64,000 nt of DNA from an uncultured Flavobacteriaceae bacterium. Lineage in GTDB: Bacteria > Bacteroidota > Bacteroidia > Flavobacteriales > Flavobacteriaceae. Shown here piece after piece: positions 17,102 through 32,552 of this stretch (positions are counted from its first letter, which is position 1; every line of letters begins with the position of its first letter). The DNA is taken from positions 744,001 through 808,000 of the forward strand of contig CANLXN010000001.1 in NCBI GenBank assembly GCA_947495135.1. The letters are read 5' to 3'. The notes under the pieces were generated by a model. It searched no databases. It had not been told where the DNA came from and saw only the letters and a program-made list of their open reading frames with translations. The translations under genes and the position numbers were made by a program.

Positions 17102-17436
17102 ATGATAGTTCGTTTAAGTTTAGTAAGTTTTATAAAACAGATAATTGTTGTGCAAAAGGAGTTAAGTTTGGAAAAGTCTCTTTTACATACTATTAGAATT
17201 GAAGGTCATAAGGACCTTTGATTGTAATACAACATGGATCTATTTGCAATAAGAGTAGGCTTTTCTGAATATTCTATTTTACATAATATAAATTATGATA
17301 CAAATATGTAAAACAGCATGAATCTGGTTATATGGACTATATATTAGTGTTGTTTTTTTGCCTATACGGTATATATGCCAGTAAAATTCGAAATAATGAA
17401 TTCTAAGCGATTGACATTTCAATTATCTACAGTATA

Positions 17437-17725
17437 ATTGGTCGTGACGCCTGTCCGCCTTTTCTGGCGGATAAAATAGCCGCTACCAAGAGCTCGATTC
17501 CTTTGTAAATAAAAATGCTCGGTGCATTTTTCTCTACACACAATTGGCCATCGCTTGGCCACACAAAAAAAAGCATAACCTTTTGCTGTAAATATAATTT
17601 CGTTATTCGGGGAAAATCTCGCTAGATTTTTTTTCTACCACATTCTCGTAAAGCCTTCCGCAAAAGCTTAAAATTTTTCTGTGAGTAAATTTCTAAGCAC
17701 TTGCTCAAATACGTCTTCTAGTGAT
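17437..17725. repeat. Dispersed intergenic element E1, copy A
   Basis: First 54 nt (17437-17490) identical to 20271-20324, including hairpin TCCGCC-TTTTCT-GGCGGA; remainder alignable but diverged. Confidence 0.88.
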
Positions 17726-17871
17726 TATTTTTAGATTGTGCTTGTCAATATTATGTAAAATAGAATTGACAATTTAATTAGATAAAAAAATATATCTTTA
17801 CTTGACATAATAAAATGTGACTAAATAATTCTATCTCCCCTTTTTAGTCATTTTCAATATATTTTATCTTA

Positions 17872-18444
17872 ATGAAAATATTTCCAAGTTGGTCACAATT
17901 TAAGGGATGGAGTTTTCCAAGTAAAGCTACTGTAATTGCGCTTTACCTAGGTGTTATTGCTCTGGTTCTTGGAATATGGAGTGCTTTTATACCAAATAGT
18001 ATTGTAAATAATTATTACCATGAAGTAATTCAAAAGGATAGTATTAAAACCAAGACTACAGAACCAATAGTTACCTTGCCAGAAAAGGAACATCATGATA
18101 GGTTCAAACTACTAGGCAGCCGAAGTTCCGAATTAATTGAACAACTTCAGGCGCATTCGATTGTTATCGGTAGCAGTTCAAATAAAACAATACAAATCAC
18201 TTATTCAGGAAGCATATATCTTTTTGGTGAAAACGCCTCCCCTTTTGTGTCAAAATATGACGGAGGATATCTTAAAATAATTATCGATAAGAGTTGTGTG
18301 AGAAAATTTACAGATTTAGAAATTCCAGCAATGGGTCCAAGTCCAGAATCAATAATTAAAAATGAAATTCAATTTTCAATTGATAACCTTATTAAGAGTA
18401 ATACTCAACAAATTATTAAAGAAATTCTTGAATGTTTAGAATAA
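17872..18444 (+). CDS. Membrane-anchored protein, unknown
   Basis: N-terminal TM ATVIALYLGVIALVLGIWSAFI; overlaps next ORF by 13 nt. Confidence 0.55.
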   Translation: MKIFPSWSQFKGWSFPSKATVIALYLGVIALVLGIWSAFIPNSIVNNYYHEVIQKDSIKTKTTEPIVTLPEKEHHDRFKLLGSRSSELIEQLQAHSIVIGSSSNKTIQITYSGSIYLFGENASPFVSKYDGGYLKIIIDKSCVRKFTDLEIPAMGPSPESIIKNEIQFSIDNLIKSNTQQIIKEILECLE

Positions 18445-20204
18445 TTATAATCACTTTTATTTATTGCCTGCATTTTACGCTATTGTCTCAAAATGACAAT
18501 GGCAAGACCGTTTTAATCTATTCAAAAGACCCAGGGTTTCTCAATCTATATATTGAATCTAAGCTTCGTGAATTACCAAATATAAAGACAAATGAGTTAT
18601 ATTTTAATGAGGTCAGCTCGTTCAACACAATAGTTGATGATAATAAGTTGCAATCGGAGTTATCAAAAATGGTATGGAAGCAATTTAGAGCCAAAGACTA
18701 TGTTCTTCCGATACCCGGAGAGAAAAACATAAATTTGGACAAAAAGATAATAGATATTTTGACCAACTACGATTATCTATTAGCTGTCAAAACTAATACT
18801 TTAGGAGAACTCATCGAATTTCAATTTCAACTATTTGAGACACTTCCTTCCGATTTTCATAATTCAATTAAAAGGGAGTTACCACGTAACTTAGTCGATA
18901 ATGTAATAAGCACAGAAAACTTTTTTATTAATCCCAAGGAAAATGGCTATCTAGAACAAATAAATAACGCACTTAAAAGGTTATTTGTTGGTTCAAATTT
19001 GAAGCCAATTGTTGATCTTAGAATCTTTGGTGATCCTATTAGTTCATATGAAACAGTTCATGTGCCTATGAATAGCGAATTCATTTTAGACGGAGGAAAT
19101 TCTGGAGATACTGACACAAACGATATTCTTTACATTTGGAGGAATATTCCAAATGAAGGTGAACAATACCAAACGACCAATAAAATTTCTTTTGATAAAA
19201 ATCTGCCTAAGCAGAAGATTAACCTAAAAAGCGCTGGGGATTACAGAATAGGGTTTAGGGTTTATGATGGTGTGGAATATTCTGAGGAAATCCAAGTTCA
19301 GTTAAGAACATTTGTGAAACCAACCTTTTATGTAGACAAACAACTAGTATATTCGATTAATTATCAATCTCTATTCGGTCGAAATCAAGGGCCAACTTTT
19401 GAAAGTCAAAAAATCACTCATTACCATACTTATCATTATGATACACAAGAAAGTACAATTCTAATTACTAAGGACCCTCTAAGGAATAAGTATATTGAAG
19501 ATAACGACAAATCAAAAATTGACACATTAAGTACTCAAACATCACATAAGAATAAGGATGGCCATAACTACACTGAAATAACTTTAAAATCGAAGTTTTT
19601 ATGGAATTCAGATGGAGAAGAATATTTTTTATATACTTTATTGCAACCTTCCAATTATTTGAGTGATGGGTTAAAAATTAGGCATAAACTAAAGAAAAGA
19701 AGAGTTGTTAATATATATACGGAATTCGGGTTTTCTGGGTTTTTACCGCAATTTGAGGGAGATAACAATAAGTTTAAATGGTACCCTAGTATCGCAATAG
19801 GGGCTTTCTTGACAAAAAATATTGAAATTGAAATTGGGACTCCCCTTTTTGAATCAAAGCTAATAAATCACGAAGGTGTTGAACTATTTTATCCAGCCTC
19901 GCTCTCTTCTAATCTAAAGTACCATATTTATAAAAATAAAAAGTTTCCAGAAGATCTAACGAACGCAACCGTAGGAATAGTCCATAACGCTTATAAAATT
20001 CCAAGAAATGGTAATCAACCGATTGGGTATAGCAGTTTAGGTCTTTCGGTTGGAATTCAAGCCACCTTAATTTCGAATCCAGATGGTCATGGCTTTCAAA
20101 TGGACGGGTATTATTCACTTGATGTCTCTCATTTTATAAACAATAACAATTTATCGAACGCAGTTGATTTGGGATATAAAGCCGGAGTCGCAATTAGCTT
20201 TTAA
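18432..20204 (+). CDS. Secreted protein with PKD-like central region and outer-membrane-like C-terminus, unknown
   Basis: Signal-like N-term; EFILDGGNSGDTDTNDILYIWRNIP...SAGDYRIGFRVYDGVEYSEEIQVQL (PKD/Ig-like); Gly/aromatic-rich end GYKAGVAISF. Confidence 0.55.
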   Translation: MFRIIIITFIYCLHFTLLSQNDNGKTVLIYSKDPGFLNLYIESKLRELPNIKTNELYFNEVSSFNTIVDDNKLQSELSKMVWKQFRAKDYVLPIPGEKNINLDKKIIDILTNYDYLLAVKTNTLGELIEFQFQLFETLPSDFHNSIKRELPRNLVDNVISTENFFINPKENGYLEQINNALKRLFVGSNLKPIVDLRIFGDPISSYETVHVPMNSEFILDGGNSGDTDTNDILYIWRNIPNEGEQYQTTNKISFDKNLPKQKINLKSAGDYRIGFRVYDGVEYSEEIQVQLRTFVKPTFYVDKQLVYSINYQSLFGRNQGPTFESQKITHYHTYHYDTQESTILITKDPLRNKYIEDNDKSKIDTLSTQTSHKNKDGHNYTEITLKSKFLWNSDGEEYFLYTLLQPSNYLSDGLKIRHKLKKRRVVNIYTEFGFSGFLPQFEGDNNKFKWYPSIAIGAFLTKNIEIEIGTPLFESKLINHEGVELFYPASLSSNLKYHIYKNKKFPEDLTNATVGIVHNAYKIPRNGNQPIGYSSLGLSVGIQATLISNPDGHGFQMDGYYSLDVSHFINNNNLSNAVDLGYKAGVAISF

Positions 20205-20216
20205 CTGAAACAGAAT

Positions 20217-20270
20217 ACCTTCCATACACATTGCCCTACCCTCCTTCCGTCGCTTCGGGCAAAGAGTATT
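20217..20270. repeat. Dispersed element R3, copy next to E1 copy B
   Basis: ccttccatacacattgccctaccctccttccgtcgcttcgggcaaagagtatt resembles 23028-23075 and 31869-31950. Confidence 0.6.
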
Positions 20271-20550
20271 ATTGGTCGTGACGCCTGTCCGCCTTTTCTG
20301 GCGGATAAAATAGCCGCTACCAAGCGCTCGATTGTTTTATAAAGTCAAATTGCTCTGGCAATTTATTTTACACACAATTATCCAACGCTTGCCAACGCCA
20401 AAATAAAAGCTAACCTTTTTGCTCTTATTAAAAATCGTTTATTCGATAAAATGTACGTAATAAAAAATTTTACGAGATTCTCGTAAGCTTCCCACAAGAG
20501 CATAAAATTACTCTGCGAGATAATTTCTATACACTTGTTATATTTAGAAC
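20271..20550. repeat. Dispersed intergenic element E1, copy B
   Basis: Starts attggtcgtgacgcctgtccgccttttctggcggataaaatagccgctaccaag, identical to copy A over 54 nt. Confidence 0.88.
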
Positions 20551-20585
20551 TCCAATTAATTCTTTTTTAATGTTTCATTATTAGG

Positions 20586-20622
20586 TATTTTAAAAATTGA
20601 TACTCAATCAATTTTTAAAATA
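20586..20622. repeat. Perfect 15-bp inverted repeat with 7-nt loop
   Basis: tattttaaaaattga-tactcaa-tcaatttttaaaata. Confidence 0.85.
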
Positions 20623-20876
20623 GTGTCTTGAAACAAAAGAAATCGACACAGGAGATTCACGAACTCTTAAAACAATATTAACGCTGAGCTAAACAAAAAT
20701 TCAAGGCTGCATATAATTTTGGAAACAATTAACCGCTCATTCGCTATATTTTAGGAAAGATTGGAACTCGTTATGACTGTTATGGAATTCGTTTTATAAT
20801 CGAAACAATCAAAACCATGTATTGCTAAATCTCTAAAATATGCACGCTCATTTCTCCTATTGTTTTTACCAAAATT

Positions 20877-21083
20877 TTATGAGGTCGAGGTTTTAATGTA
20901 GAACAAATCATCATCAATTTCTTTTACAATTGGATGTTTAAGGACTTCATCAATATCGCTAACTTTTCCGCCAGCTCTTAAAACAATTTGTTTTATATAA
21001 TCTCTATTAATTGTTTCGAATTGTTCAACTAACATTTCATGTCTAATAAGCATTAAAAAAGTCTCTATTTTTTCTTTATCCAT
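20877..21083 (-). CDS. 68-aa protein, unknown; partner of the upstream TIGR04141-like gene
   Basis: MDKEKIETFLMLIRHEMLVEQFETINRDYIKQIVLRAGGKVSDIDEVLKHPIVKEIDDDLFYIKTSTS; 5 nt after the stop of the larger gene. Confidence 0.6.
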   Translation of the reverse strand: MDKEKIETFLMLIRHEMLVEQFETINRDYIKQIVLRAGGKVSDIDEVLKHPIVKEIDDDLFYIKTSTS

Positions 21084-21088
21084 AGTTT

Positions 21089-22867
21089 TTAAACTTCTGT
21101 TATTCTTTCAATTAAAAAATTAAAGTCAGTATTTTTCATATCTCTAATGCAATACAGTAAAGAAAGTTTTGCTATTCTTGAATTTGTTGAAGTAATTTCG
21201 TCATTAATTTCTAATTGTGAAGTTGACGAATAAGCAAAGACGAATGAAATCTTTTTGGTTTTAAATAAGTCAATAAAATTATCAAGATTCACTATCTCTT
21301 GAGTGCCATCTTCTTTAAGACATTGTAAAGAATTGTTGTTATACTGCTTATTAGAAATAGCATTATAATAAAGTTCAAAAGCCTCATTATTGCTCTCTCC
21401 TATAGCATTTGTCAACACTCTTGCGCCATTTATAATTTGATTAGCCAGAACTCTCAAATCCCTTCCTAAACCTTTCTTGACATGATATAAGTAAATATTA
21501 TTATCAGTAATTCTTATCAAATCACAAATTTCTAAATAATATAAAAAGGCTGTATCTGCTACAATGAAATTTTCAGCTTCTTTATAATTTCTATTATAGG
21601 CTCCTTCAGTTCCGTGAACATTAAAATCCCAATCATTCAAACTCAATGGTGGAGCTAATAAATCAAAATTTAAATTACCTAAATGATTATTTAAATAATC
21701 ATTAAATCCTTCTCTATATCTATACCATTGATTATCTAATTTAAAAAATCGATTGCCATCAAACTCAATCTCACCACTTATCCACTTATCAAGACTCTTT
21801 TCATTAGAATAGGCATTATCTTCATCAATGGCGAAACCGCCTACACAATTTTCCATACTTTCAATAAAGTTGGCTTCTGTACTTGAATCTATAACATCTT
21901 CATTTACAAGTCTGTTCATAGTTGCTATATACCCAAAAGAATAACCTAAAGGAATTTCTATATGACTACCTAAAACATCAAACCAGACTATAGTAGCTTT
22001 GGTATACCTGAAAATATCTGGATGATAAAAATCAACTGAATTCCCATTATTATATGCTTCATAAGCCATTTTTATTAACTCTAAATTCAGATTATCCTCA
22101 ATAGCTCTTAACTCTCCAGCTGTAAGTCTATAAAATTGATTAAACTGTACACCTGCTGTCTGAAGAAGCTCTTCTATTTGGGAAATTCTTTGAATTAATT
22201 CATCATAATCAAAGTTTGTAGAAACCTCAAATGAGGAACCTCCAGAAATAGAAACTCTAGTTGTATCTTCTCTTTTCTTTACAATTCCTAACCTTGCAAA
22301 ATGCTCTTCATCTATTGATGCTAGCATAGCTCTATATATCTTTCCAAAATCATCTTCATAGGCCAAATTGTAATCTTCTCTAAAAAATCTTTCAGCTCCT
22401 AAAACTGATCCAAAAACACCTCTTTCTTCTAATTTTCGAATTTCTGTTACGTTTTTATCTACCAATTTCGATAAAACATCCAACCCAAAAAATTTATCAA
22501 GAGACTCATCCATTATGTGTCTACCATAATAACCTTTGGTAATAGCATAAATTCTTCTATCATTATAAATAAATAATATAAAAGCCGAATATTTTGCTTC
22601 CAATTCATTTAAGTCTTCTTCATTATCGACTATACCATTTAAAAAGTTAAGCCAATGAGGTTTTATATCATCTGTTGAATAAATGAACAACTTGGATTGA
22701 TATTCGTTATTGGCTATAGTGTTCTGTAATTGAATATTCCTAAATTGATTTCCACTTTTATTATAATAATCAAGAATCATTTGGTCGATAATTTCTTCAG
22801 AATCACCCAAGTTTTCGACAATCACGTCCTGAATTTTATATAGTTTAGCATTAACTCGATTTGACAT
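21089..22867 (-). CDS. TIGR04141/DUF6119-like sporadically distributed protein
   Basis: Long ORF; SAFILFIYNDRRIYAITKGYYGRHIMDESLDKFFGLDVLSKLVDKN...VFGSVLGAERFFREDYNLAYEDDFGKIYRAMLAS...RVSISGGSSFEVS layout. Confidence 0.6.
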   Translation of the reverse strand: MSNRVNAKLYKIQDVIVENLGDSEEIIDQMILDYYNKSGNQFRNIQLQNTIANNEYQSKLFIYSTDDIKPHWLNFLNGIVDNEEDLNELEAKYSAFILFIYNDRRIYAITKGYYGRHIMDESLDKFFGLDVLSKLVDKNVTEIRKLEERGVFGSVLGAERFFREDYNLAYEDDFGKIYRAMLASIDEEHFARLGIVKKREDTTRVSISGGSSFEVSTNFDYDELIQRISQIEELLQTAGVQFNQFYRLTAGELRAIEDNLNLELIKMAYEAYNNGNSVDFYHPDIFRYTKATIVWFDVLGSHIEIPLGYSFGYIATMNRLVNEDVIDSSTEANFIESMENCVGGFAIDEDNAYSNEKSLDKWISGEIEFDGNRFFKLDNQWYRYREGFNDYLNNHLGNLNFDLLAPPLSLNDWDFNVHGTEGAYNRNYKEAENFIVADTAFLYYLEICDLIRITDNNIYLYHVKKGLGRDLRVLANQIINGARVLTNAIGESNNEAFELYYNAISNKQYNNNSLQCLKEDGTQEIVNLDNFIDLFKTKKISFVFAYSSTSQLEINDEITSTNSRIAKLSLLYCIRDMKNTDFNFLIERITEV

Positions 22868-23027
22868 AAGTGCATATTTATTAGTTACAGTAAAATCACT
22901 GTACTATTATTTATAATCTTTTAAAGGCTATAATTAATTAAAGGGAGAGTTTGAATATAATGATTTTTAACAAGTAATAGATTACGGAAATCCTTAGTTT
23001 TCAAAATTTTATATAAAAAACCCATTC

Positions 23028-23075
23028 CACACACATTATGCTTCCCTCCTACGTCGTCGCATAAAAAGTGTTCCA
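23028..23075. repeat. Dispersed element R3
   Basis: cattccacacacattatgcttccctcctacgtcgtcgcataaaaagtgtt. Confidence 0.7.
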
Positions 23076-23247
23076 TTAACATTGTAGAAGAAACATTTGA
23101 GCAGAAAAAAATCAAAAAAAATAGTAACAACTTTCGCTTTTTACCAAAGCAAAGTGACATAACCCGCCTACGCAAAAAAAGCTCCAGCTGACGCGCGCAA
23201 AACATTATAGAACAAATTGGCTAATACTTAATAACACGGCTATATGT

Positions 23248-23342
23248 ACGATATACGATGTTTGATGGACGATAGACGATATGTTCTTGCCTGTAACTTC
23301 CCTATTATGGATAATTGTTGCGGAATTTTGAAATATGGGATT
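23248..23342. repeat. Heptad array plus conserved flank (R2)
   Basis: acgatat acgatgt ttgatgg acgatag acgatat, then gcctgtaacttccctattatggataattgttgcggaattttgaaatatgggatt, matching 26364-26460. Confidence 0.85.
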
Positions 23343-23365: not shown

Positions 23366-25081
23366 CTACAAAACCTTAACTCCCTGCATAATCTCCCCCT
23401 CCAATAAGATATTAATATAACTAGCATTGCCATCTTTGGTGAATTCAATTTCGGCACCTATTTCTTCAATAAAGAATTTGTTATCGCCTTTTGGCTTTAA
23501 TTCTAATGCATCCGAGCCTTTGGGTTGTCCTAATAACTGGCCATTCTCAAGGGAGATGGTAATGGTCATTTGTTCAGAAACATAGGTTCCTGTATAGGTT
23601 TTTAGCCTTTCCGAATCTACCGAAATGACCTCATTCTTTTTAGGCGTCTCTTTCGCGGTTTTAAGGGCAGTTGATTTTGTAATTCTATTTTGATACACAA
23701 ACTCTTGGTAACCCATTTCCGAATCTTTAGAAAAAGTGAAACTCACATACCCTTGTCTAAATGACAACGTACGATCGTTATGCGCATACAGCTTTCGCTC
23801 TCTCCCACCCGGTGCCTTGTAAAAAAGTCCTGTTTCCTCATTGTAATCGATATAGCGTTTATCACCATTTTCAAGGGTGTAGGTTCCAATAAACTTCCCC
23901 AATTCGCTTGTTGTTAACATCTTTGCTTCAGTCGATAATGGATAGGGCTTTCCCAGTATCGTGGAGGCAATTTGTATGGTTGGGTACCTAGGCGACCCTT
24001 CCTCATTATTTTGCATCACAATTACATAGAGGTTTTCTTCGGGCACATAAATCGAATTTGCCTTAAAACCCGGTGTACTACCAGAGTGCTCATACGAGTC
24101 GGTATTTTGAATTTTGTTGAACTCCCAACCGTAGCCGTAATGCGTGTTCGTTCCATTATGTAATTGATAATCATTCAGCATGGCCGAAAGACTTGATGTA
24201 TTAATGATTTTATGACTGAAGAGACCCGTCACCCATTTATTCATATCTCTGGGTGTACTTACGATATCACCCGCAGAAAAGGTAGGAAAAGGGTTTGCTG
24301 GACTCAATTCATCGTTGTCATTTAGCTCATAGCCTATTGCTTTCTTTGCGAAGCCGTCATTATTACTGGAAACTGTAGACCGATTCATTTTTAACGGACT
24401 AAAAATGTGATCGTCTACATATTCTTTATACGACTTCCCAGATACTTTTTCGATAATCAAGCCCAATAAGATGTAGCCATTATTTGAGTACTGATATTCT
24501 TCTCCTGGCATAAAAACTAAGTTTGGCGCATTGGCAGTCGACACATTCTCATGGATAGTTATTTCGGAAGCATTACTAATACCCAATCCTATCACGATTC
24601 CTTTGGATGGTAGACCGGACGTATGGGTAAGTAGGTGTTCAATTGTAATTGGATATTTTTCAATTGAAAACGCCTTAAGATGTATTCCTAAATAATCTGA
24701 AACCTTTAGTTTTCCTTGTTCTTGTAACTGAAGTATGGCTGCCGCGGTAAATTGTTTGGTGATAGAGCCAATATTGAATCTTGTAGATTTTTTAATTCGT
24801 TTGTTCGTATTCACATTAGCTAAGCCAAGCTGCCTTTCATAAACGATTTTTCCTTCTTTCGATATAAGTACCGATACTCCTGTTGTTTCTTTATCGTACG
24901 AAGCGGTTAATAGCTGTTCTATTTGCAAACGAGTTTCTTTGCTAAGCTTGCTTTTTTTTGATTGAGCACTCCCCTCTTGAGTACTTGAAAAAAGAGTAAA
25001 GAAAATGAGCATTAAGAATGTAGTTGATTTCATAGTCATGATTTGATTGATTGATATTTCAACAAAAATGAGCAATATCAA
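23366..25081 (-). CDS. Serine hydrolase (beta-lactamase-like, class C fold) with C-terminal extension
   Basis: FNIGSITKQFTAAAILQL (SxxK), YQYSNNGYILLG (YxN), YEHSGSTPGF. Confidence 0.9.
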   Translation of the reverse strand: MILLIFVEISINQIMTMKSTTFLMLIFFTLFSSTQEGSAQSKKSKLSKETRLQIEQLLTASYDKETTGVSVLISKEGKIVYERQLGLANVNTNKRIKKSTRFNIGSITKQFTAAAILQLQEQGKLKVSDYLGIHLKAFSIEKYPITIEHLLTHTSGLPSKGIVIGLGISNASEITIHENVSTANAPNLVFMPGEEYQYSNNGYILLGLIIEKVSGKSYKEYVDDHIFSPLKMNRSTVSSNNDGFAKKAIGYELNDNDELSPANPFPTFSAGDIVSTPRDMNKWVTGLFSHKIINTSSLSAMLNDYQLHNGTNTHYGYGWEFNKIQNTDSYEHSGSTPGFKANSIYVPEENLYVIVMQNNEEGSPRYPTIQIASTILGKPYPLSTEAKMLTTSELGKFIGTYTLENGDKRYIDYNEETGLFYKAPGGRERKLYAHNDRTLSFRQGYVSFTFSKDSEMGYQEFVYQNRITKSTALKTAKETPKKNEVISVDSERLKTYTGTYVSEQMTITISLENGQLLGQPKGSDALELKPKGDNKFFIEEIGAEIEFTKDGNASYINILLEGEIMQGVKVL

Positions 25082-25117
25082 TCAACAAGTCGACTCATGA
25101 CTTCCTATGAGACCTAT

Positions 25118-26278
25118 TTAGTAAGAAGTTTCAGCAGAATGGTTCACATATTCATTTCGGTATTGGGATGGAGAAAGCCCTGTTTCTTTTTTGAAGATTC
25201 TATTGAAACTTGCTTTAGAGTTAAAACCACAATCCATGGCTAGGGACAAAATTGTATACTTGGTGCTATCTACATGCCGAAGTGACTTTTTAACTTCTAT
25301 AATTCGAAATGAATTGACATAGTCATAGAAGGTGGTTTCTAGGTATGTATTAAAAAGTGTCGAAAGTTTTTTGTCTGTAATTTCTATGGACCTAGCAAGC
25401 TTCCCTAATGTTAATTCAGGATCCAAATACGGTTTATCATCGCTCATTACCTTTGCTAAATTTTCGATTAGATGAGCGATTGCATCTTGATCATAGGCAG
25501 ATAAACTATGTTGCTGCCGGCCATTATTATTCAATCTAAACTCCGGTTCCAGCAGAAACTTTGGCAGCAGTATTTTGGACTGACTTATTCCATGAAAGCC
25601 CAAATAACTCACTAAAATTATAATCGAGAACATAGTGAAATAACCGGTATTTATAGCTGTCGCGATTGAAAATTCATCCATCAATCGGGTAATAATATCA
25701 ACCGATATAAAGGCCAAACTTCCATATAGGAGGTTTCTAATCCAATTTAGATCTAGTTTCGAAAGTTCTGAGTGACTATGCTGAATTACATTTTTACTGC
25801 TATTAAAAATGCGCAACGATAGATAAATGTATACAATGAAGACTATGTTGCTGAAGATTACTATCACAACTTGGTTGGTATCTATGTACTGAAGGTATTT
25901 AAAACTGGGTTCGTTGATTAATTGAAAAATTGATATTGGGAGACCAATCAACAAGGTAAATATGAAAAAGCCTAAAAAGTGTTTTAAGTTTCTACGAATT
26001 AATCCTTGTTCTTCCTGAAACACCGATTTTAAATAAACCAATATCAACGGACCTAAAAACCAGATTATTGAAATATTAACAAGGAAGGTCGCTTTATACA
26101 GAATTTCTAATCTATGAAGCGATGAATATGCATGCAGATTGAGAAGGAGCATTAGAGAAAAGAAGATAATTAATATCTTTTTTTGGAGTTTCTTGTTTTT
26201 TGATCTAACTAATAAAAACAAGATTATCACAGATATGATAACCCCGGTAACAAGTATAAAATCATAAAACAGTTTCAT
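25118..26278 (-). CDS. Membrane-bound AraC-family regulator
   Basis: Multiple TM helices, C-term LGKLARSIEITDKKLSTLFN...ILSLAMDCGFNSKASFNRIFKKETGLSPSQYR. Confidence 0.9.
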   Translation of the reverse strand: MKLFYDFILVTGVIISVIILFLLVRSKNKKLQKKILIIFFSLMLLLNLHAYSSLHRLEILYKATFLVNISIIWFLGPLILVYLKSVFQEEQGLIRRNLKHFLGFFIFTLLIGLPISIFQLINEPSFKYLQYIDTNQVVIVIFSNIVFIVYIYLSLRIFNSSKNVIQHSHSELSKLDLNWIRNLLYGSLAFISVDIITRLMDEFSIATAINTGYFTMFSIIILVSYLGFHGISQSKILLPKFLLEPEFRLNNNGRQQHSLSAYDQDAIAHLIENLAKVMSDDKPYLDPELTLGKLARSIEITDKKLSTLFNTYLETTFYDYVNSFRIIEVKKSLRHVDSTKYTILSLAMDCGFNSKASFNRIFKKETGLSPSQYRNEYVNHSAETSY

Positions 26279-26363
26279 ATACTGTATGACTTCTAAGTAA
26301 GGCTTTTGTTACAACGGAATCTCTCTAATTGAAATTTGAAGTTGAATATCCCATTCATACAGT

Positions 26364-26460
26364 TTGATGTACGATATACGATGTTTGATAGACGATCTAT
26401 TGTTGGCTGTAACTTCTCTATCCTAGATAATTGTTGGGGAAATTTGAAATATGGGATTTA
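26364..26460. repeat. Heptad array plus conserved flank (R2)
   Basis: ttgatgt acgatat acgatgt ttgatag acgatct attgttg, then gctgtaacttctctatcctagataattgttggggaaatttgaaatatgggatt. Confidence 0.85.
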
Positions 26461-26483
26461 TGGGGATTAGACCTAAGCACTAT

Positions 26484-26560
26484 CCAACTCCAAAATATAA
26501 GCTAACCTTTTCGCACTTATTAAAAATCGCGTATTCTATAATAGGTACATTCAACTACTA
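26484..26560. repeat. Partial, degenerate E1 copy
   Basis: aactccaaaatataagctaaccttttcgcacttattaaaaatcgcgtattctataataggtac vs E1 copy B 20393-20456. Confidence 0.65.
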
Positions 26561-26694
26561 CATCCACCGAAGCTTTTCGTGTAGGTGGATTGCATTATCA
26601 AAATTTTTTGAGATCAATTTGCCAACGCTGCATCTGGATAAAAAGCACTATAAATAAAGTAAAAATTTGAAACTATTCAACGCTTTATAAATGT

Positions 26695-27444
26695 TCAAGT
26701 ATACTCTTTATCCACATTATCATAAACTCTAATCCCTGTTATTTTACCTGTTTCCTTATTGACGTCATAAATAGAAACGCCTGCTTGTGCTTTAAAGGTG
26801 GCGCTTCCCCAAACATCACAGGTATATTCTCCTGCAAAAGAGCCTTGTTCTTTATCAAAAATATAATTGTGAAACTTTAAAGGCACTCCCCCATCACCAA
26901 AAAAGTGATCAAAATGTTCTTGTAAGCCTTTTTCGGTTTTATGGTTCCAACGCCATCCTGCAGGTTCTCTAAAATAGACATCGTCTTCAAAAGAAAGGGT
27001 TTTCATTGTCGCTTTTGTTGAACCAATGGTTATACCTTCAAAATAGCGAACAACCTCTTTGGGTTCGGTAAGTTCAATTTCTTCGGAGAAAATGGCTGCT
27101 CTAAAAACGTGGCCTTCAGTAATTGGATACACAGAATGATAGGTTCGTATGGCGCAGTATTGATTGCCTTCTTTCTCCATAATGACCACCAATGGCAAAT
27201 CAAAAGTATTGTTTAATAGGATATCGTATTCTACTACCAAATGTTTCTCGTCTTCAAATTGTTTGAAAACCTTGACTTCCTTTACTTCGTCTTTAAGGTA
27301 ATCGAATTGCTTCTTAAGTAATTGAATACCTTGTGCTTTTCCTTTTGAAACCCCTACAGATTGTATGTTAAGCACCACATCTTCAGCGCACTGAGAAAGA
27401 ATGGTACGGTAGTCTTCTTTTAAAATATATTCTATAAATTTCAT
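26695..27444 (-). CDS. NTF2/SnoaL-like protein, two domains
   Basis: EYILKEDYRTILSQCAEDVVLNIQSVGVSKGKAQGIQLLKKQFDYLKDE; second half repeats the fold. Confidence 0.6.
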   Translation of the reverse strand: MKFIEYILKEDYRTILSQCAEDVVLNIQSVGVSKGKAQGIQLLKKQFDYLKDEVKEVKVFKQFEDEKHLVVEYDILLNNTFDLPLVVIMEKEGNQYCAIRTYHSVYPITEGHVFRAAIFSEEIELTEPKEVVRYFEGITIGSTKATMKTLSFEDDVYFREPAGWRWNHKTEKGLQEHFDHFFGDGGVPLKFHNYIFDKEQGSFAGEYTCDVWGSATFKAQAGVSIYDVNKETGKITGIRVYDNVDKEYT

Positions 27445-27500
27445 AATTATGGTTTTTATATCCTTACTTCCAAGGGAGTTTTAAAATTTTGCCGATCGTC

Positions 27501-28145
27501 TTACTTTTTTTCTGGTGTGATCAAAACCACTTTTCCATCGTAAAGCAACTGCAATTGGTAGTTGTTAGTTGCGGCAACTTTTGACAAAAATATCCTCGTA
27601 TCACCCATATCTGCGTTATCCACATAGATAAGCGTCTGGTCGTGAAAATTAGGTTCAAGCATCGTGAATAATGGATGGTACAAATCTTTCCACCCGTCTA
27701 AAAGCAATAAATCAATAGCATTGTTATGGTCTTTTAAGGTTTCCATCGCGTCACCCGTTCGTACTTCTATTAAATCACCTACGCCTGCTTTTGCGAAATT
27801 TTCTTTCGCCTTTTCCGCTTTGGATGCAATAAGTTCCGTAGTGATAATTTTCCCATCTGTTTCTAATGCACCCTGCGCTAAAAAGAGAGTTGAAATTCCA
27901 AAAGAAGTCCCAAATTCAACTATATTCTTGATGCTTTTTTGCTTAATAAGTTCTACTAAATCTTCACCCTGCTCTCTCGAAATAGAAAGATAAACGTTCT
28001 TAAAGTTTGAAGGCTGAAAGCTGCCGAAAACACTTTTTGCGGCACTTGTAATCATTCTTAAATGGTCGAATTTAGAGTCTTTGAATAACTCCTCTAAAAC
28101 TCCTTCTATATTATTTTCTATCGTTATCATATTTTTTATTTTCAA
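27501..28145 (-). CDS. SAM-dependent O-methyltransferase
   Basis: IVEFGTSFGISTLFLAQGALETDGKIITTELIASKAEKAKENFAKAGVGDLIEVRTGDA...IDLLLLDGWKDLYHPLF. Confidence 0.87.
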   Translation of the reverse strand: MKIKNMITIENNIEGVLEELFKDSKFDHLRMITSAAKSVFGSFQPSNFKNVYLSISREQGEDLVELIKQKSIKNIVEFGTSFGISTLFLAQGALETDGKIITTELIASKAEKAKENFAKAGVGDLIEVRTGDAMETLKDHNNAIDLLLLDGWKDLYHPLFTMLEPNFHDQTLIYVDNADMGDTRIFLSKVAATNNYQLQLLYDGKVVLITPEKK

Positions 28146-28208
28146 TAAAAAGGAATATCAAAATTTCATCTTAATATTCCTTTTAGCTATTAATGAAATA
28201 AGGGTTAA

Positions 28209-29660
28209 TTAAAATTTTCCGTTGTCATTTTTCCATTCAGATTTTGGCGGAATCTCAGCCATTACATCCCAATGTTCAATGATCTTACCGTTTTCTAGTC
28301 TAAATAAATCATAATAGGCATAAGGTTTTCCTCCGAGACTACCCTCAGATACTCCAAGAACAAAGTTACCTTGTCCTAATATCATATGTACCTGGTCCAG
28401 TTTCATTGTAACTCCACTCTCTGCCATTTTCTTTACACCATTTAAGAATCCCGAAACCCCATCTGGTAACATAGGGTTATGTTGTAAATAAGTATCACCT
28501 TCATAATAGTTGGCGAATTTGCCAAAATCACCACCAATTATTACTGTATCATAGTACTCTTTAATGATCGCCTTATTTTCTTCCGTTTTATTCAAGTCTA
28601 CAAGCACTGTGGCGCCATCTAATTGCGTTCTACCACTTACTGTTTTTTCTTGGAGAGGTAACATATTGTCCCAATGCTCTACAATTAATCCATCCTCAAA
28701 ACGAAATATATCAAAGCCAGCTTTTGCACCAAAAAAGTCATATTCAGTATGTGTAAACACATAATCGCCATCTTCGAAGGCACGAATAACATTGGCTTTA
28801 AATCCACCAGAAGGTGCATTTTTCATAATTTCGCCAAAACCTTCAAGGCCATCTCCAACACTTAAATTATGTTGAATGTATTTTTCTGGATTGATATATG
28901 AAATGGGTGTTTGGTCTCCTGTATTAAAGCTGTTAAGTAGCGCCACTACTTTATCCTTTTTTGACATTTCTGTCGGTTCTAAAGTAGTAAGCATTTGAGA
29001 ACGTGTCATCTCTACCGATGGCTGGCTCATCATACCCATAAACTCTTTTGACGTAGGATCACTCATAAATGTTTGTAAATAGTTATTAGAGTTTTCTTTA
29101 GTATCCCAATAGATCACAACCACTTGCCTGCCGTTTTCATTAACGCCGGTAATACGTTGTAGAAATCCTTTTTGAGTGGCTGTTTTATCTGCTACTTTCT
29201 CGTTAATAGTATCAAATGTATTCGTCTCTGCTCCATCAACTAGATTAAAAGACATCATTTCAACAAATCCACTCGAATCGGCCTTAAAATCTGCAGTAAT
29301 AGTATATCGATTCATTTTCATAGAATTTCCTTCAATCATACTTGCGTAATCGGCTACTGAAGGGTCTCCCATAAATTTTTTCATGGATGCTTCTGCATCT
29401 GAACGTGTTTCCCAATACACTATAACTGTGTACTTCCCATTTTTATCAACTCCGCTTTCTCGTCTTATAAATCCAGGCTGTTTGCTTGTAAAGTTATCTT
29501 GAACTTTTGCATCTAATGCATTAAAAGCTTGACTGTTTGATGTCGTCTTTAATGAAAAGGTAGTAACTTCCAACACCGAAGACTCAATTGTTTTTTCTTC
29601 GTTTTTACAACTTGTAATAAGAACTACTGCCATTACTATTAATATTAAGTTTTGTTTCAT
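28209..29660 (-). CDS. Lipoprotein with two ABM-like and two SnoaL-like domains
   Basis: ITSC lipobox; two repeats of QPGFIRRESGVDKNGKYTVIVYWETRSDAEASMKKFM / QKGFLQRITGVNENGRQVVVIYWDTKENSNNYLQTFM; two SnoaL-like units (YIQHNLSVGDGLEGF, YLQHNPMLPDGVSGF). Confidence 0.8.
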   Translation of the reverse strand: MKQNLILIVMAVVLITSCKNEEKTIESSVLEVTTFSLKTTSNSQAFNALDAKVQDNFTSKQPGFIRRESGVDKNGKYTVIVYWETRSDAEASMKKFMGDPSVADYASMIEGNSMKMNRYTITADFKADSSGFVEMMSFNLVDGAETNTFDTINEKVADKTATQKGFLQRITGVNENGRQVVVIYWDTKENSNNYLQTFMSDPTSKEFMGMMSQPSVEMTRSQMLTTLEPTEMSKKDKVVALLNSFNTGDQTPISYINPEKYIQHNLSVGDGLEGFGEIMKNAPSGGFKANVIRAFEDGDYVFTHTEYDFFGAKAGFDIFRFEDGLIVEHWDNMLPLQEKTVSGRTQLDGATVLVDLNKTEENKAIIKEYYDTVIIGGDFGKFANYYEGDTYLQHNPMLPDGVSGFLNGVKKMAESGVTMKLDQVHMILGQGNFVLGVSEGSLGGKPYAYYDLFRLENGKIIEHWDVMAEIPPKSEWKNDNGKF

Positions 29661-29686
29661 AGTTGGTTATTTTTATTGGTTGTTTC

Positions 29687-30262
29687 TTAATTCAATGTAA
29701 TTGTGAAATTTTGACTAGGATTAAAATCGTAACCTTCTCCAATTTCTACAACTAGTATATTGTCAGAGTCTATTCGAAGGTTTACGGAAGAATTACTCGA
29801 TGTAAAACCATTTACATTTTGAGTATTATCGAATGTAAAATAATACCTGTCAAATGTATCGGGTTCTAATACTCTAAATAAATCTCCATAAGTTGGATCA
29901 CCGGCTTCTGCTACCACGTTAAATGAAATACTATTTTCATCGATATCGATATCATATAAGCTTAATAAATATGAAGGAAATTCAATAGCGGCTCCAACAT
30001 TTGCTGTTGCAGCTAACGAGCCTTCTGGAACCATAAATAAATCTTCGATAGGCATTTCAGATCCATTTGTAAATGCGACTGATTGGAATGTATTTCTTAC
30101 AGTTACACTTGAGCCAAGCGTGATTTCCTTTTCTCTTCTATTATTATCATCATCACGATTACAAGAAGTAAAACCAATAGAGGTAAGCAACAAAAGGATT
30201 AGTAAATAATTAAATTTTAAATGTTTCATAATGTATTTTAGATTTTTAATTAAGGATACCAC
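29687..30262 (-). CDS. Lipoprotein, unknown (possibly spondin-like)
   Basis: TSIGFTSCNRDDDN lipobox. Confidence 0.55.
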   Translation of the reverse strand: MVSLIKNLKYIMKHLKFNYLLILLLLTSIGFTSCNRDDDNNRREKEITLGSSVTVRNTFQSVAFTNGSEMPIEDLFMVPEGSLAATANVGAAIEFPSYLLSLYDIDIDENSISFNVVAEAGDPTYGDLFRVLEPDTFDRYYFTFDNTQNVNGFTSSNSSVNLRIDSDNILVVEIGEGYDFNPSQNFTITLN

Positions 30263-30413
30263 AAAAGTATACTCATAGTATATCCTGCTAATTATAAAAG
30301 TTGATGGAATAATTGTAAAAGTGTAACCAATGATTAAAATACCGTCTAAGGTGAAGAGGTGTCAAATGGTATTTTGAGTTACTTCGATTTAGAGATATTA
30401 CCGTATAAAATAA

Positions 30414-30443
30414 GTATAGCCAAATTTTTCAATTTGGCTATAC
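30414..30443 (-). terminator. Terminator hairpin after the Spy-like gene
   Basis: gtatagccaaatt ... aatttggctatac. Confidence 0.7.
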
Positions 30444-30499
30444 CACTTGTTTAAATCAAACACCTAAAAGCTCGAATTAAACCTTCAACAATCTGAATA

Positions 30500-30835
30500 C
30501 TATTCTATGTGCATTTTTTTTAATTGCTCCTCATTTAGAACTGTTTTTAAATCGTTCTTCCATTCTAACCGCATTTTGCTAAGTTGCTCCTTACGCTCTT
30601 CTCGAGGCATTTCACCTCTTGTGCTCTTAAGTTCCTGATGCGCCTTAACTTTTTTCAAGTTTATGATATAGACCTGTTCTTTTTGCTTTTCGGTCAAATC
30701 TAACTTTTTAGCCATATGTTCTGTTCTATGACTAACTCTATCTTCTTGAGATTTTTGTGCCCAAAGTAATGACTTAGTGCCAAAAAGTGTCATTAATACA
30801 ACTAAGGTTGCAACAATCATTTTTTTCCGTTTCAT
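30500..30835 (-). CDS. Spy/CpxP-like secreted protein
   Basis: Signal peptide; RTEHMAKKLDLTEKQKEQVYIINLKKVKAHQELKSTRGEMPREERKEQLSKMRLEWKNDLKTVLNEEQLKK. Confidence 0.7.
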   Translation of the reverse strand: MKRKKMIVATLVVLMTLFGTKSLLWAQKSQEDRVSHRTEHMAKKLDLTEKQKEQVYIINLKKVKAHQELKSTRGEMPREERKEQLSKMRLEWKNDLKTVLNEEQLKKMHIE

Positions 30836-30959
30836 CTGTTATTATTTGAAAATTTATTATGATAACTACTTTAGTTATTCTTTGGAGCAAAGATATAGCC
30901 ACACGATTCCACAATGATTATAGAAATAAATCAAAAAATAGTAAAAATGAAACCAATGA

Positions 30960-31838
30960 TTAAAATTGACTTCTAAACTGAAGTGGTGTTTTGTGAGTGT
31001 TTTTTTTGAAGAATTTAATCATATTTGCAGGCTCATCGAATCCAACTTTATAGCTAATTTCTTTGATAGATAAAGACGTAGAGACTAGATAGCGTTTAAT
31101 TTCGACAGTTACAAAATCATCAATAAAAGCTTTAACTGTTTTACCCGTCAACTTTTTCACTATATCGTTAAGGAGTTTGTAAGAAATGAACAATTTCGAG
31201 GCGTAAGTTCTTGAACTTCTCGTAACTACATATTCTTTTTGTAGCATATTCTTAAAGGCACTAAATGTATCTAACCATTGGGTTTTTACGCCACTTATCG
31301 ATTTTTTTTCTTTTGTTCTTTCAGCTTTTAATAATAATACTTGAAGCAAAGCACGTAACATATCACTTTTAAGAAAATTATTTGGGAAATTATATTCAGA
31401 ATAAAGCTTTTTTGCCACACCAACGAAGTTATCTTCTCCAATGTCTTCCTGATGTATGACTGGTGATTCTAAATGGTAGTTGTACAACCTGTTTAAATTG
31501 GCGTTTTTGGATAAGAAAAAGTTTTTTTCAAAATATTCACTATTGAGAACTATACAGAAACCTTCAGCCTGTTTCATGTTTTCAGTAAAATAATGCATTT
31601 GATTTTTCGCAATAAATAATACACTGCCAGCTTTTAAATCATAAAATTTAAAATCGACATAATGCGAGTAAGAGCCTTTGGTTACAACGGTAATAAAGTA
31701 GAACTGAATTTTATGAGCACTAAATGGGTTATGGTCTTTAATTCCTGAAAGCTTCTTATAAGTTTCGCTTAAAGTCATCACTTCTATATCGAATTCTCTC
31801 TGCGATTTGAATTTTATTTTTGTTAATGATTTTGTCAT
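30960..31838 (-). CDS. AraC-family transcriptional regulator
   Basis: Cupin-like N-term; C-term STSLSIKEISYKVGFDEPANMIKFFKKNTHKTPLQFRSQF. Confidence 0.9.
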   Translation of the reverse strand: MTKSLTKIKFKSQREFDIEVMTLSETYKKLSGIKDHNPFSAHKIQFYFITVVTKGSYSHYVDFKFYDLKAGSVLFIAKNQMHYFTENMKQAEGFCIVLNSEYFEKNFFLSKNANLNRLYNYHLESPVIHQEDIGEDNFVGVAKKLYSEYNFPNNFLKSDMLRALLQVLLLKAERTKEKKSISGVKTQWLDTFSAFKNMLQKEYVVTRSSRTYASKLFISYKLLNDIVKKLTGKTVKAFIDDFVTVEIKRYLVSTSLSIKEISYKVGFDEPANMIKFFKKNTHKTPLQFRSQF

Positions 31839-31952: not shown

Positions 31953-32552
31953 CTAATAATACAACCTGAAATCAAGCAATTTACACATACCATAGTGTTT
32001 TTTATGTAACTCTTCTACTACGGCTATCATATCGTCATCTTCTTTAAATAAGTTAAAGAATGCTTTATCGAGGTTTGAGCTAGATATTTCGTTAGATACA
32101 GTACCGTAACCAGAAATACCCTTTGCGCCAGTGATGTCTATAAAATACTGTGCTTCGTCTGGATCCAAATCCAATACTTTTGCATTAGAGAAATGTAAAA
32201 TTTTACCGGTTAATCTACCTTCAAAAATTTCGGCAATTTCTTGTAAACTATAGTAGTAATCGTTTAAGCAAATACTATTTGCTTCCCCTTCCATAATCAA
32301 GTAGATGATTTCATAATCTTTAAAATAATGATCATCTAAAATCAATGCATTTAGGCTGTCTGCTAGCCCTTCAATAGTGTCACAGGTTTTATAAATGCTG
32401 GCAATACCATATTGATTGGCTAGTTGTTCAAGACTTTTTTCAGCTTCGGAAATGTACTCCATTTCAACATCGCTAACGGCTTCTAAACAATAGATAAAAT
32501 AGTCTGTATGGACAACTTGATTTTGAGGTAATTGTGGTCTTTTCTGTAGCAA
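31953..32552 (-). CDS. DUF6642-like protein (caspase/CHAT-like fold suspected)
   Basis: YFIYCLEAVSDVEMEY...YLIMEGEANSICLNDYYYSLQEIAEIFEGRLTGKILHFSNAKVLDLD. Confidence 0.5.
   Translation of the reverse strand: MLQKRPQLPQNQVVHTDYFIYCLEAVSDVEMEYISEAEKSLEQLANQYGIASIYKTCDTIEGLADSLNALILDDHYFKDYEIIYLIMEGEANSICLNDYYYSLQEIAEIFEGRLTGKILHFSNAKVLDLDPDEAQYFIDITGAKGISGYGTVSNEISSSNLDKAFFNLFKEDDDMIAVVEELHKKHYGMCKLLDFRLYY

Follow-up and report, generated by a model that had tools for sequence, protein, structure and literature searches.

Two gene modules beside a dif site

The window, i.e., the whole 64,000-nucleotide stretch of DNA analysed here (positions 744,001 to 808,000 of contig CANLXN010000001.1, assembly GCA_947495135.1, from an uncultured Flavobacteriaceae bacterium), carries two accessory gene modules to the right of a 28-bp site that we take to be the chromosomal dif. 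Each module is read below as having an element termed E1 at its left end and another, R3, at its right end. In window coordinates, the features are as follows:

17277 to 17304, minus strand: chromosomal dif as taken here, 28 bp, with plus-strand sequence TTTTACATAATATAAATTATGATACAAA
17431 to 17766, plus strand: E1 copy A (E1A), left end of module 1
17872 to 20204, plus strand: module 1 cargo, two genes of 190 and 590 aa that overlap, with no accepted family
20220 to 20270, plus strand: R3 of module 1 (right end), truncated and fused to E1B
20265 to 20885, plus strand: E1 copy B (E1B) plus the extension downstream of it, forming the left end of module 2, homologous to ends in other genera as far as the first cargo gene
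20586 to 20622: perfect inverted repeat (16+16), a small insert inside the E1B end
20877 to 22867, minus strand: cargo of module 2, a 68-aa ORF and a TIGR04141/DUF6119 gene (592 aa)
23021 to 23218, plus strand: R3 of module 2 (right end), a decayed attR with XerC arm ATTATAGAACAAAT and an interrupted centre
23366 to 31838, minus strand: additional accessory genes, located after the recognised modules and before the anchor (serine hydrolase, AraC regulators, methyltransferase, SnoaL-like)
26476 to 26578, plus strand: third E1 remnant
31953 to 32552, minus strand: DUF6642 gene (Pfam), conserved right anchor of the dif island, 77-80% identical to the dif-adjacent gene in relatives

The repeat described in the initial annotation is real: E1A (17431-17725) and E1B (20265-20550) share a 54-nt identical run that includes the hairpin TCCGCC-TTTTCT-GGCGGA, and are 91% identical across their initial 86 nt (78% across 267 nt). 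R3 is likewise present at 20220-20270 and from 23021, but its true length of about 200-220 bp exceeds that first given, and the first copy is truncated where it abuts E1B. The inverted repeat at 20586-20622 is indeed perfect, with arms of 16+16 rather than 15 bp; an insert of similar form occurs in two relatives (L049 and L066). Family search bore out the proposed TIGR04141/DUF6119 identity of the 592-aa gene, and no recombinase family was found among the genes between the E1 copies, in line with the initial annotation. Four features were overlooked at that stage: the 17277-17304 dif, the dif-like terminus of R3, the remnant of a third E1 and the anchor gene on the right. Just right of module 2, a short imperfect 7-bp repeat (ACGATAT-like) occupies 23248-23285, and no connection between it and the module ends was seen.

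Read on the minus strand from XerC arm to XerD arm, the 28-bp site is TTTGTATCATA-ATTTAT-ATTATGTAAAA; in most genomes the other strand of dif reads TTTGTACTATA-ATTTAT-ATTATGTAAAA, with 11-bp arms around a 6-bp centre. Its right arm resembles the XerD arms of the Escherichia coli and Bacillus subtilis dif sites. The site lies about 130 bp left of E1A, is the top-scoring dif site of the window and scores fully; among 83 copies, the XerD arm and the 6-bp centre are kept in nearly all, with the XerC arm more variable. With few mismatches allowed, there is one copy in the own genome and one each in 91 of 197 relatives, and in the genus of G084 (taken as Maribacter) dif was found in 34 of 36 genomes, as a single copy in 33 and as two copies in one. 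In G214 (a Maribacter), a second dif-like site with 2 mismatches lies on another contig (G214:C72:228063 and G214:C50:310560). As GC skew of the window alone was too noisy, skew was taken from sampled genomes, where G040 was noisy as well. In G048 (one contig), skew is positive in all samples between 0.4 and 2.0 Mb and negative in those from 2.2 Mb onward, with dif at 2.118 Mb; in G022, which has other sign changes also, skew switches sign within 2.80-3.02 Mb, dif being at 2.998 Mb. On the own contig, the samples left of dif are all positive, and three of the four to its right are negative. Based on copy number, 11-6-11 structure and the GC-skew switch, we thus take the 28-bp site as the chromosomal dif, at which marine Flavobacteriaceae would resolve chromosome dimers. 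In one-contig genomes (including G022, G029, G040 and G048), dnaA sits only 5-24% of the chromosome away from dif and is thus no guide to terminus or origin.

Two distinct ends in a polar array

Within the own genome (4.29 Mb, 45 contigs), E1 occurs only as E1A, E1B and the remnant at 26476-26578, and the two window copies of the hairpin are the sole ones. The initial annotation had named absence of the repeats elsewhere in the genome as a result that would speak against gene cassettes, and nothing besides the remnant was indeed found; for elements that insert at one chromosomal site, however, just this is expected. Chance is ruled out because the repeats recur: an R3+E1 query matched 39 of the 197 relative genomes, usually clustered at one locus. 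A 28-nt pattern from the start of E1 occurred 116 times in named genomes, almost exclusively from Flavobacteriaceae (including Aquimarina, Maribacter, Polaribacter, Zobellia and Algibacter).

Loci were oriented by dif, or by E1 in the few without dif. They run in the order dif, E1, genes and R3, often followed by E1, genes and R3 again; orientation is uniform for all 80 strong E1 matches and all 79 strong R3 matches. In 41 loci of Flavobacteriaceae, 67-370 bp separate dif from the start of the first E1 to its right. Modules are about 5 kb long (median), and most of their cargo genes (213 of 268) are encoded on the minus strand, with 3' ends facing E1. In its longer profile, R3 terminates in AAGTTACATAAC-GCAGAAC-ATTATAGTACAAAT, a dif-like sequence oriented as dif; at this attR site the XerC arm is kept, the XerD arm is altered and the centre is typically 9 bp. 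E1 starts with a dif-like site in the opposite orientation to dif, with a 7-bp centre, and most loci hold a further inverted dif-like site between dif and E1. The attR and E1 sites score well below dif. Conserved sequence extends for about 0.7 kb on the E1 side and about 0.2 kb on the R3 side.

Of the cassette arrangement first proposed, it stands that unrelated genes lie inside conserved ends, that gene content between the repeats is not always the same in relatives, and that both empty and occupied sites exist. What falls is the notion of one non-coding repeat dropped between genes, as there are two distinct ends, with E1 on the left and R3 on the right of each module. The window copies themselves are eroded: E1A and E1B have lost the left dif-like site, with a hairpin in its place, and E1A finishes with a half site resembling an XerD arm, ATTATGTAAAATAGAAT, which repeats 17271-17289 beside dif in inverted form; the module 1 R3 is truncated and the module 2 attR interrupted. 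With their inner sites thus decayed, both modules are probably frozen in place, while the window dif could still receive new ones.

A non-coding element at cargo 3' ends, uniform orientation and diverse cargo would also suit an integron-type array in which E1 elements serve as attC-like sites, the direction in which the initial annotation had pointed, and the outcome is indeed alike, i.e., an ordered build-up of promiscuous gene packages at one site. However, there is no integrase in the array or on its contig (no PF00589 match), a search of the region against the Rfam families gave chance matches only and no attC-like family, and the multi-gene modules have two different ends whose sites resemble dif rather than attC. 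We thus rejected this reading, to which we attach a negligible probability.

That E1 and R3 are regulatory or terminator elements of vertically inherited genes is scarcely more credible. On the strand of most cargo genes, E1 does form hairpins, one of them followed by a T run (e.g., window 20385-20445, minus strand), and a weak consensus fold, the z-score of which we did not rely on because the column-shuffle control inflates it. Yet neighbouring genes differ almost everywhere, copies are common to several genera, and the elements are located at dif; empty sites contradict such a role as the sole explanation. E1 may also terminate cargo transcription, a function that could coexist with that of a mobile end.

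Evidence for a proposed successive insertion at dif

Integration at dif is expected to yield (i) a left junction that keeps the chromosomal XerD arm and centre, (ii) a right junction in which the XerD arm and centre of the element are joined to the chromosomal XerC arm, and (iii) beyond the latter, the former right flank of dif. All three features are seen, which supports insertion of the modules at dif. At 41 of 67 junctions, the flank beyond attR matches, in register, the flank beyond dif elsewhere, and the post-R3 flanks of two loci (L296 and L306) align to an empty site (L307) from the XerC arm onward; for about one in four attR flanks, no counterpart was found.

Relatives hold none, one or two modules between dif and the DUF6642 gene, and the distance between these two landmarks grows with the number of right ends (rank correlation 0.69, P=0.002). 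It amounts to 333 bp (L230) and 467 bp (L282) with no ends between; a single recognised right end goes with 6.2-8.1 kb (six of seven loci), and two such ends with 10.7-12.5 kb. In the window it is about 14.6 kb, and the genes at 23366-31838 may belong to older modules. Comparison of individual loci would illustrate (i) gain, in a locus with a single module followed by the anchor (L302), (ii) replacement, in a pair with the same flanking genes on both sides and a different large gene in the middle (L306 and L287), and (iii) stacking, in a pair with a common second module and differing first modules (L280 and L308). In four loci (L223, L285, L287 and L307), the dif-DUF6642 interval contains genes, yet neither E1 nor R3 could be recognised; L287, for instance, has a 1901-aa gene at the place taken in L306 by a 1621-aa gene with ends. 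Another end family is perhaps present in these loci. In two genomes (G065:C1:3192280 and G070:C1:2193910), a complete E1 copy lies over 1 Mb away from where dif is now located; beside that of G065 lies a decayed dif-like sequence, which suggests rearrangement or a displaced dif.

We are thus fairly confident that E1/R3 modules insert successively at the chromosomal dif, in one orientation, with E1 and R3 as their left and right ends. Insertion is probably carried out by the XerC/XerD of the cell itself: the own genome has five tyrosine-recombinase (PF00589) matches, including two complete proteins of XerC/XerD size, and none of these lies on the contig of the window. In the proposed sequence of events, a circular module with a dif-like site between R3 and E1 would be recombined with dif by host XerC/XerD, such that the left junction stays a working dif and the right junction becomes the altered site, attR. 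With the XerD arm of attR changed and its centre lengthened, the module would be held. The next module would enter at the retained dif and push older ones to the right, thus generating a polar array between dif and the anchor. The switch next to the XerC arm, together with centres of unequal length, suggests a XerC-first single-strand exchange, as in CTXphi, in which XerC would be the catalyst; the circular intermediate may possibly be single-stranded. In other genomes, modules may be mobile at present. Weighing against this explanation, no circular form was found in plasmid and phage records, the collections of which contain no match to E1 or to the R3-E1 junction, and no within-species polymorphism was seen. 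The low scores of the attR and E1 sites, their destruction in the window, the distant E1 copies of G065 and G070, the islands lacking recognisable ends and the unmatched attR flanks weigh against it as well.

Probable exchange between genera and relation to known systems

Module ends are 83-95% identical across genera, with different genes inside, and in most pairs the sequences cease to be alike near where the first cargo gene ends. Where a genome contains more than one E1, 23 of 28 copies are closer to one from another genus than to their sibling; window E1B, for instance, is 91-93% identical to copies in four other genera vs 78% to E1A. Ends of this length (about 0.7 and 0.2 kb), with some 90% identity between genera, would suffice for homologous recombination, and the right-end sites of the window are decayed. 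The ends might thus offer mere shared homology, with cargo swapped by RecA between E1 and R3 after DNA uptake and dif as a passive hotspot. We consider this unlikely, since it leaves unexplained why the array always starts at dif, why there is a single orientation, and why R3 has a dif-like end with a dif-type far flank. RecA-dependent recombination could, however, be a second route acting upon an array founded by Xer.

Matched cargo families comprise defence types, among them cytosine methylases and ThiF (E1-E2) proteins, along with non-defence functions (beta-lactamase-fold hydrolases, dehydrogenases, an efflux pump, a sulfatase and regulators); a 1683-aa cargo protein matches Avs4 below the cut-off of the model. 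Defence-library families matched numbered 188 for 120 cargo proteins vs 31 for 120 left-flank proteins, a tally that is only suggestive as families rather than proteins were counted and the protein sets differ in length. Among the 25 most frequent of the 111 families matched by the 120 cargo proteins, there was no integrase family, and no viral, replication or packaging family stood out.

The latter result, along with the lack of any match in phage records, weakens the proposal that the modules are satellites or relics of ssDNA phages, or of small plasmids, that integrate at dif and had their viral genes replaced by cargo. Such a descent, which bears on origin more than on mechanism, we regard as improbable, more so than RecA-driven swapping, even though ssDNA phages of Flavobacterium and Bacteroidetes do use dif for integration (PMC9719478, PMC3091885). 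It would accord with the predicted folding of dif and the inverted second site as a hairpin (z -4.6; z -2.5 for the junction between attR and this second site). CTXphi has two inverted dif-like sites and undergoes XerC-first exchange. Flavobacteriaceae modules resemble it in their two inverted dif-like sites able to fold as a hairpin (here by prediction), unequal centre lengths and a switch point at the XerC arm, and differ in having no phage genes (for reviews of CTXphi-type attachment, see PMC4246890 and PMC3091885).

Insertion by Xer at dif would place the modules close to two other groups of elements. IMEX, such as the gonococcal genetic island and Legionella LME-1 (PMC9765430), leave an altered second dif and share with the modules insertion at the chromosomal dif, a pair of junctions of which one is an intact and the other a modified dif, and freedom from an integrase of their own. 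The corresponding traits here are location at the host dif in 41 loci, a dif mimic with hybrid junctions that is recognised by sequence in relatives and is decayed in the window, and integrase-free modules in the window. In contrast to IMEX, Flavobacteriaceae modules are short and stacked in one orientation, with conserved 0.7-kb and 0.2-kb ends and cargo that varies across the family. The dif (pdif) modules of Acinetobacter plasmids and chromosomes (PMC6449649, PMC13141974, PMC12907356) similarly comprise interchangeable cargo bounded by Xer-type sites, without a recombinase. These are mainly plasmid-borne, of C and D kinds and with short sites, whereas the Flavobacteriaceae array is polar, chromosomal, at the resident dif and equipped with long ends; site orientation also seems to differ, with opposite sites and normal-length centres in Acinetobacter vs an E1 site inverted relative to dif (7-bp centre) and an attR oriented as dif (9-bp centre) here. 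The array is thus best read as a variant of Xer-dependent mobile elements, polar and tandem, that would be akin to IMEX and Acinetobacter dif modules and have its own conserved ends. In the open-access literature, we found no report of such arrays in Flavobacteriaceae.

More tentatively, and with somewhat less than even confidence, we propose a family-wide exchange system of Flavobacteriaceae, in which dif would act as a dock for XerC-first capture of recombinase-free modules with standard ends, perhaps via a folded single-stranded site, with modules stacked by arrival and defence and niche genes traded between genera. Accessory and defence genes of marine Flavobacteriaceae reside in islands without a visible integrase; for one such island type, there is now a defined site, defined ends and a polarity rule, such that the order of gain may be read from sequence and new cargo may be mined to the right of dif. 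This suggests a route for trading defence and other accessory genes without a dedicated integrase, and would widen the reach of Xer-dependent mobility, so far a matter of single islands and of modules on plasmids, to ordered arrays on the chromosome throughout one family.

A second conserved element, palindromic and with XerD-like and XerC-like arms (TTTGACATAATTGCAGATATAACGTC...GACTTATATCG...AATTATGTCAA), lies 30-150 bp right of dif in L223, L228, L229, L233, L235 and others, as well as in the E1-bearing loci L041, L050 and L061. A search for it in phage records gave no match. One copy is predicted to fold as ssDNA at -26.2 kcal/mol (z -9.5), and tandem pairs occur in L089 and L233; the element may possibly represent a folded attachment site of other elements.
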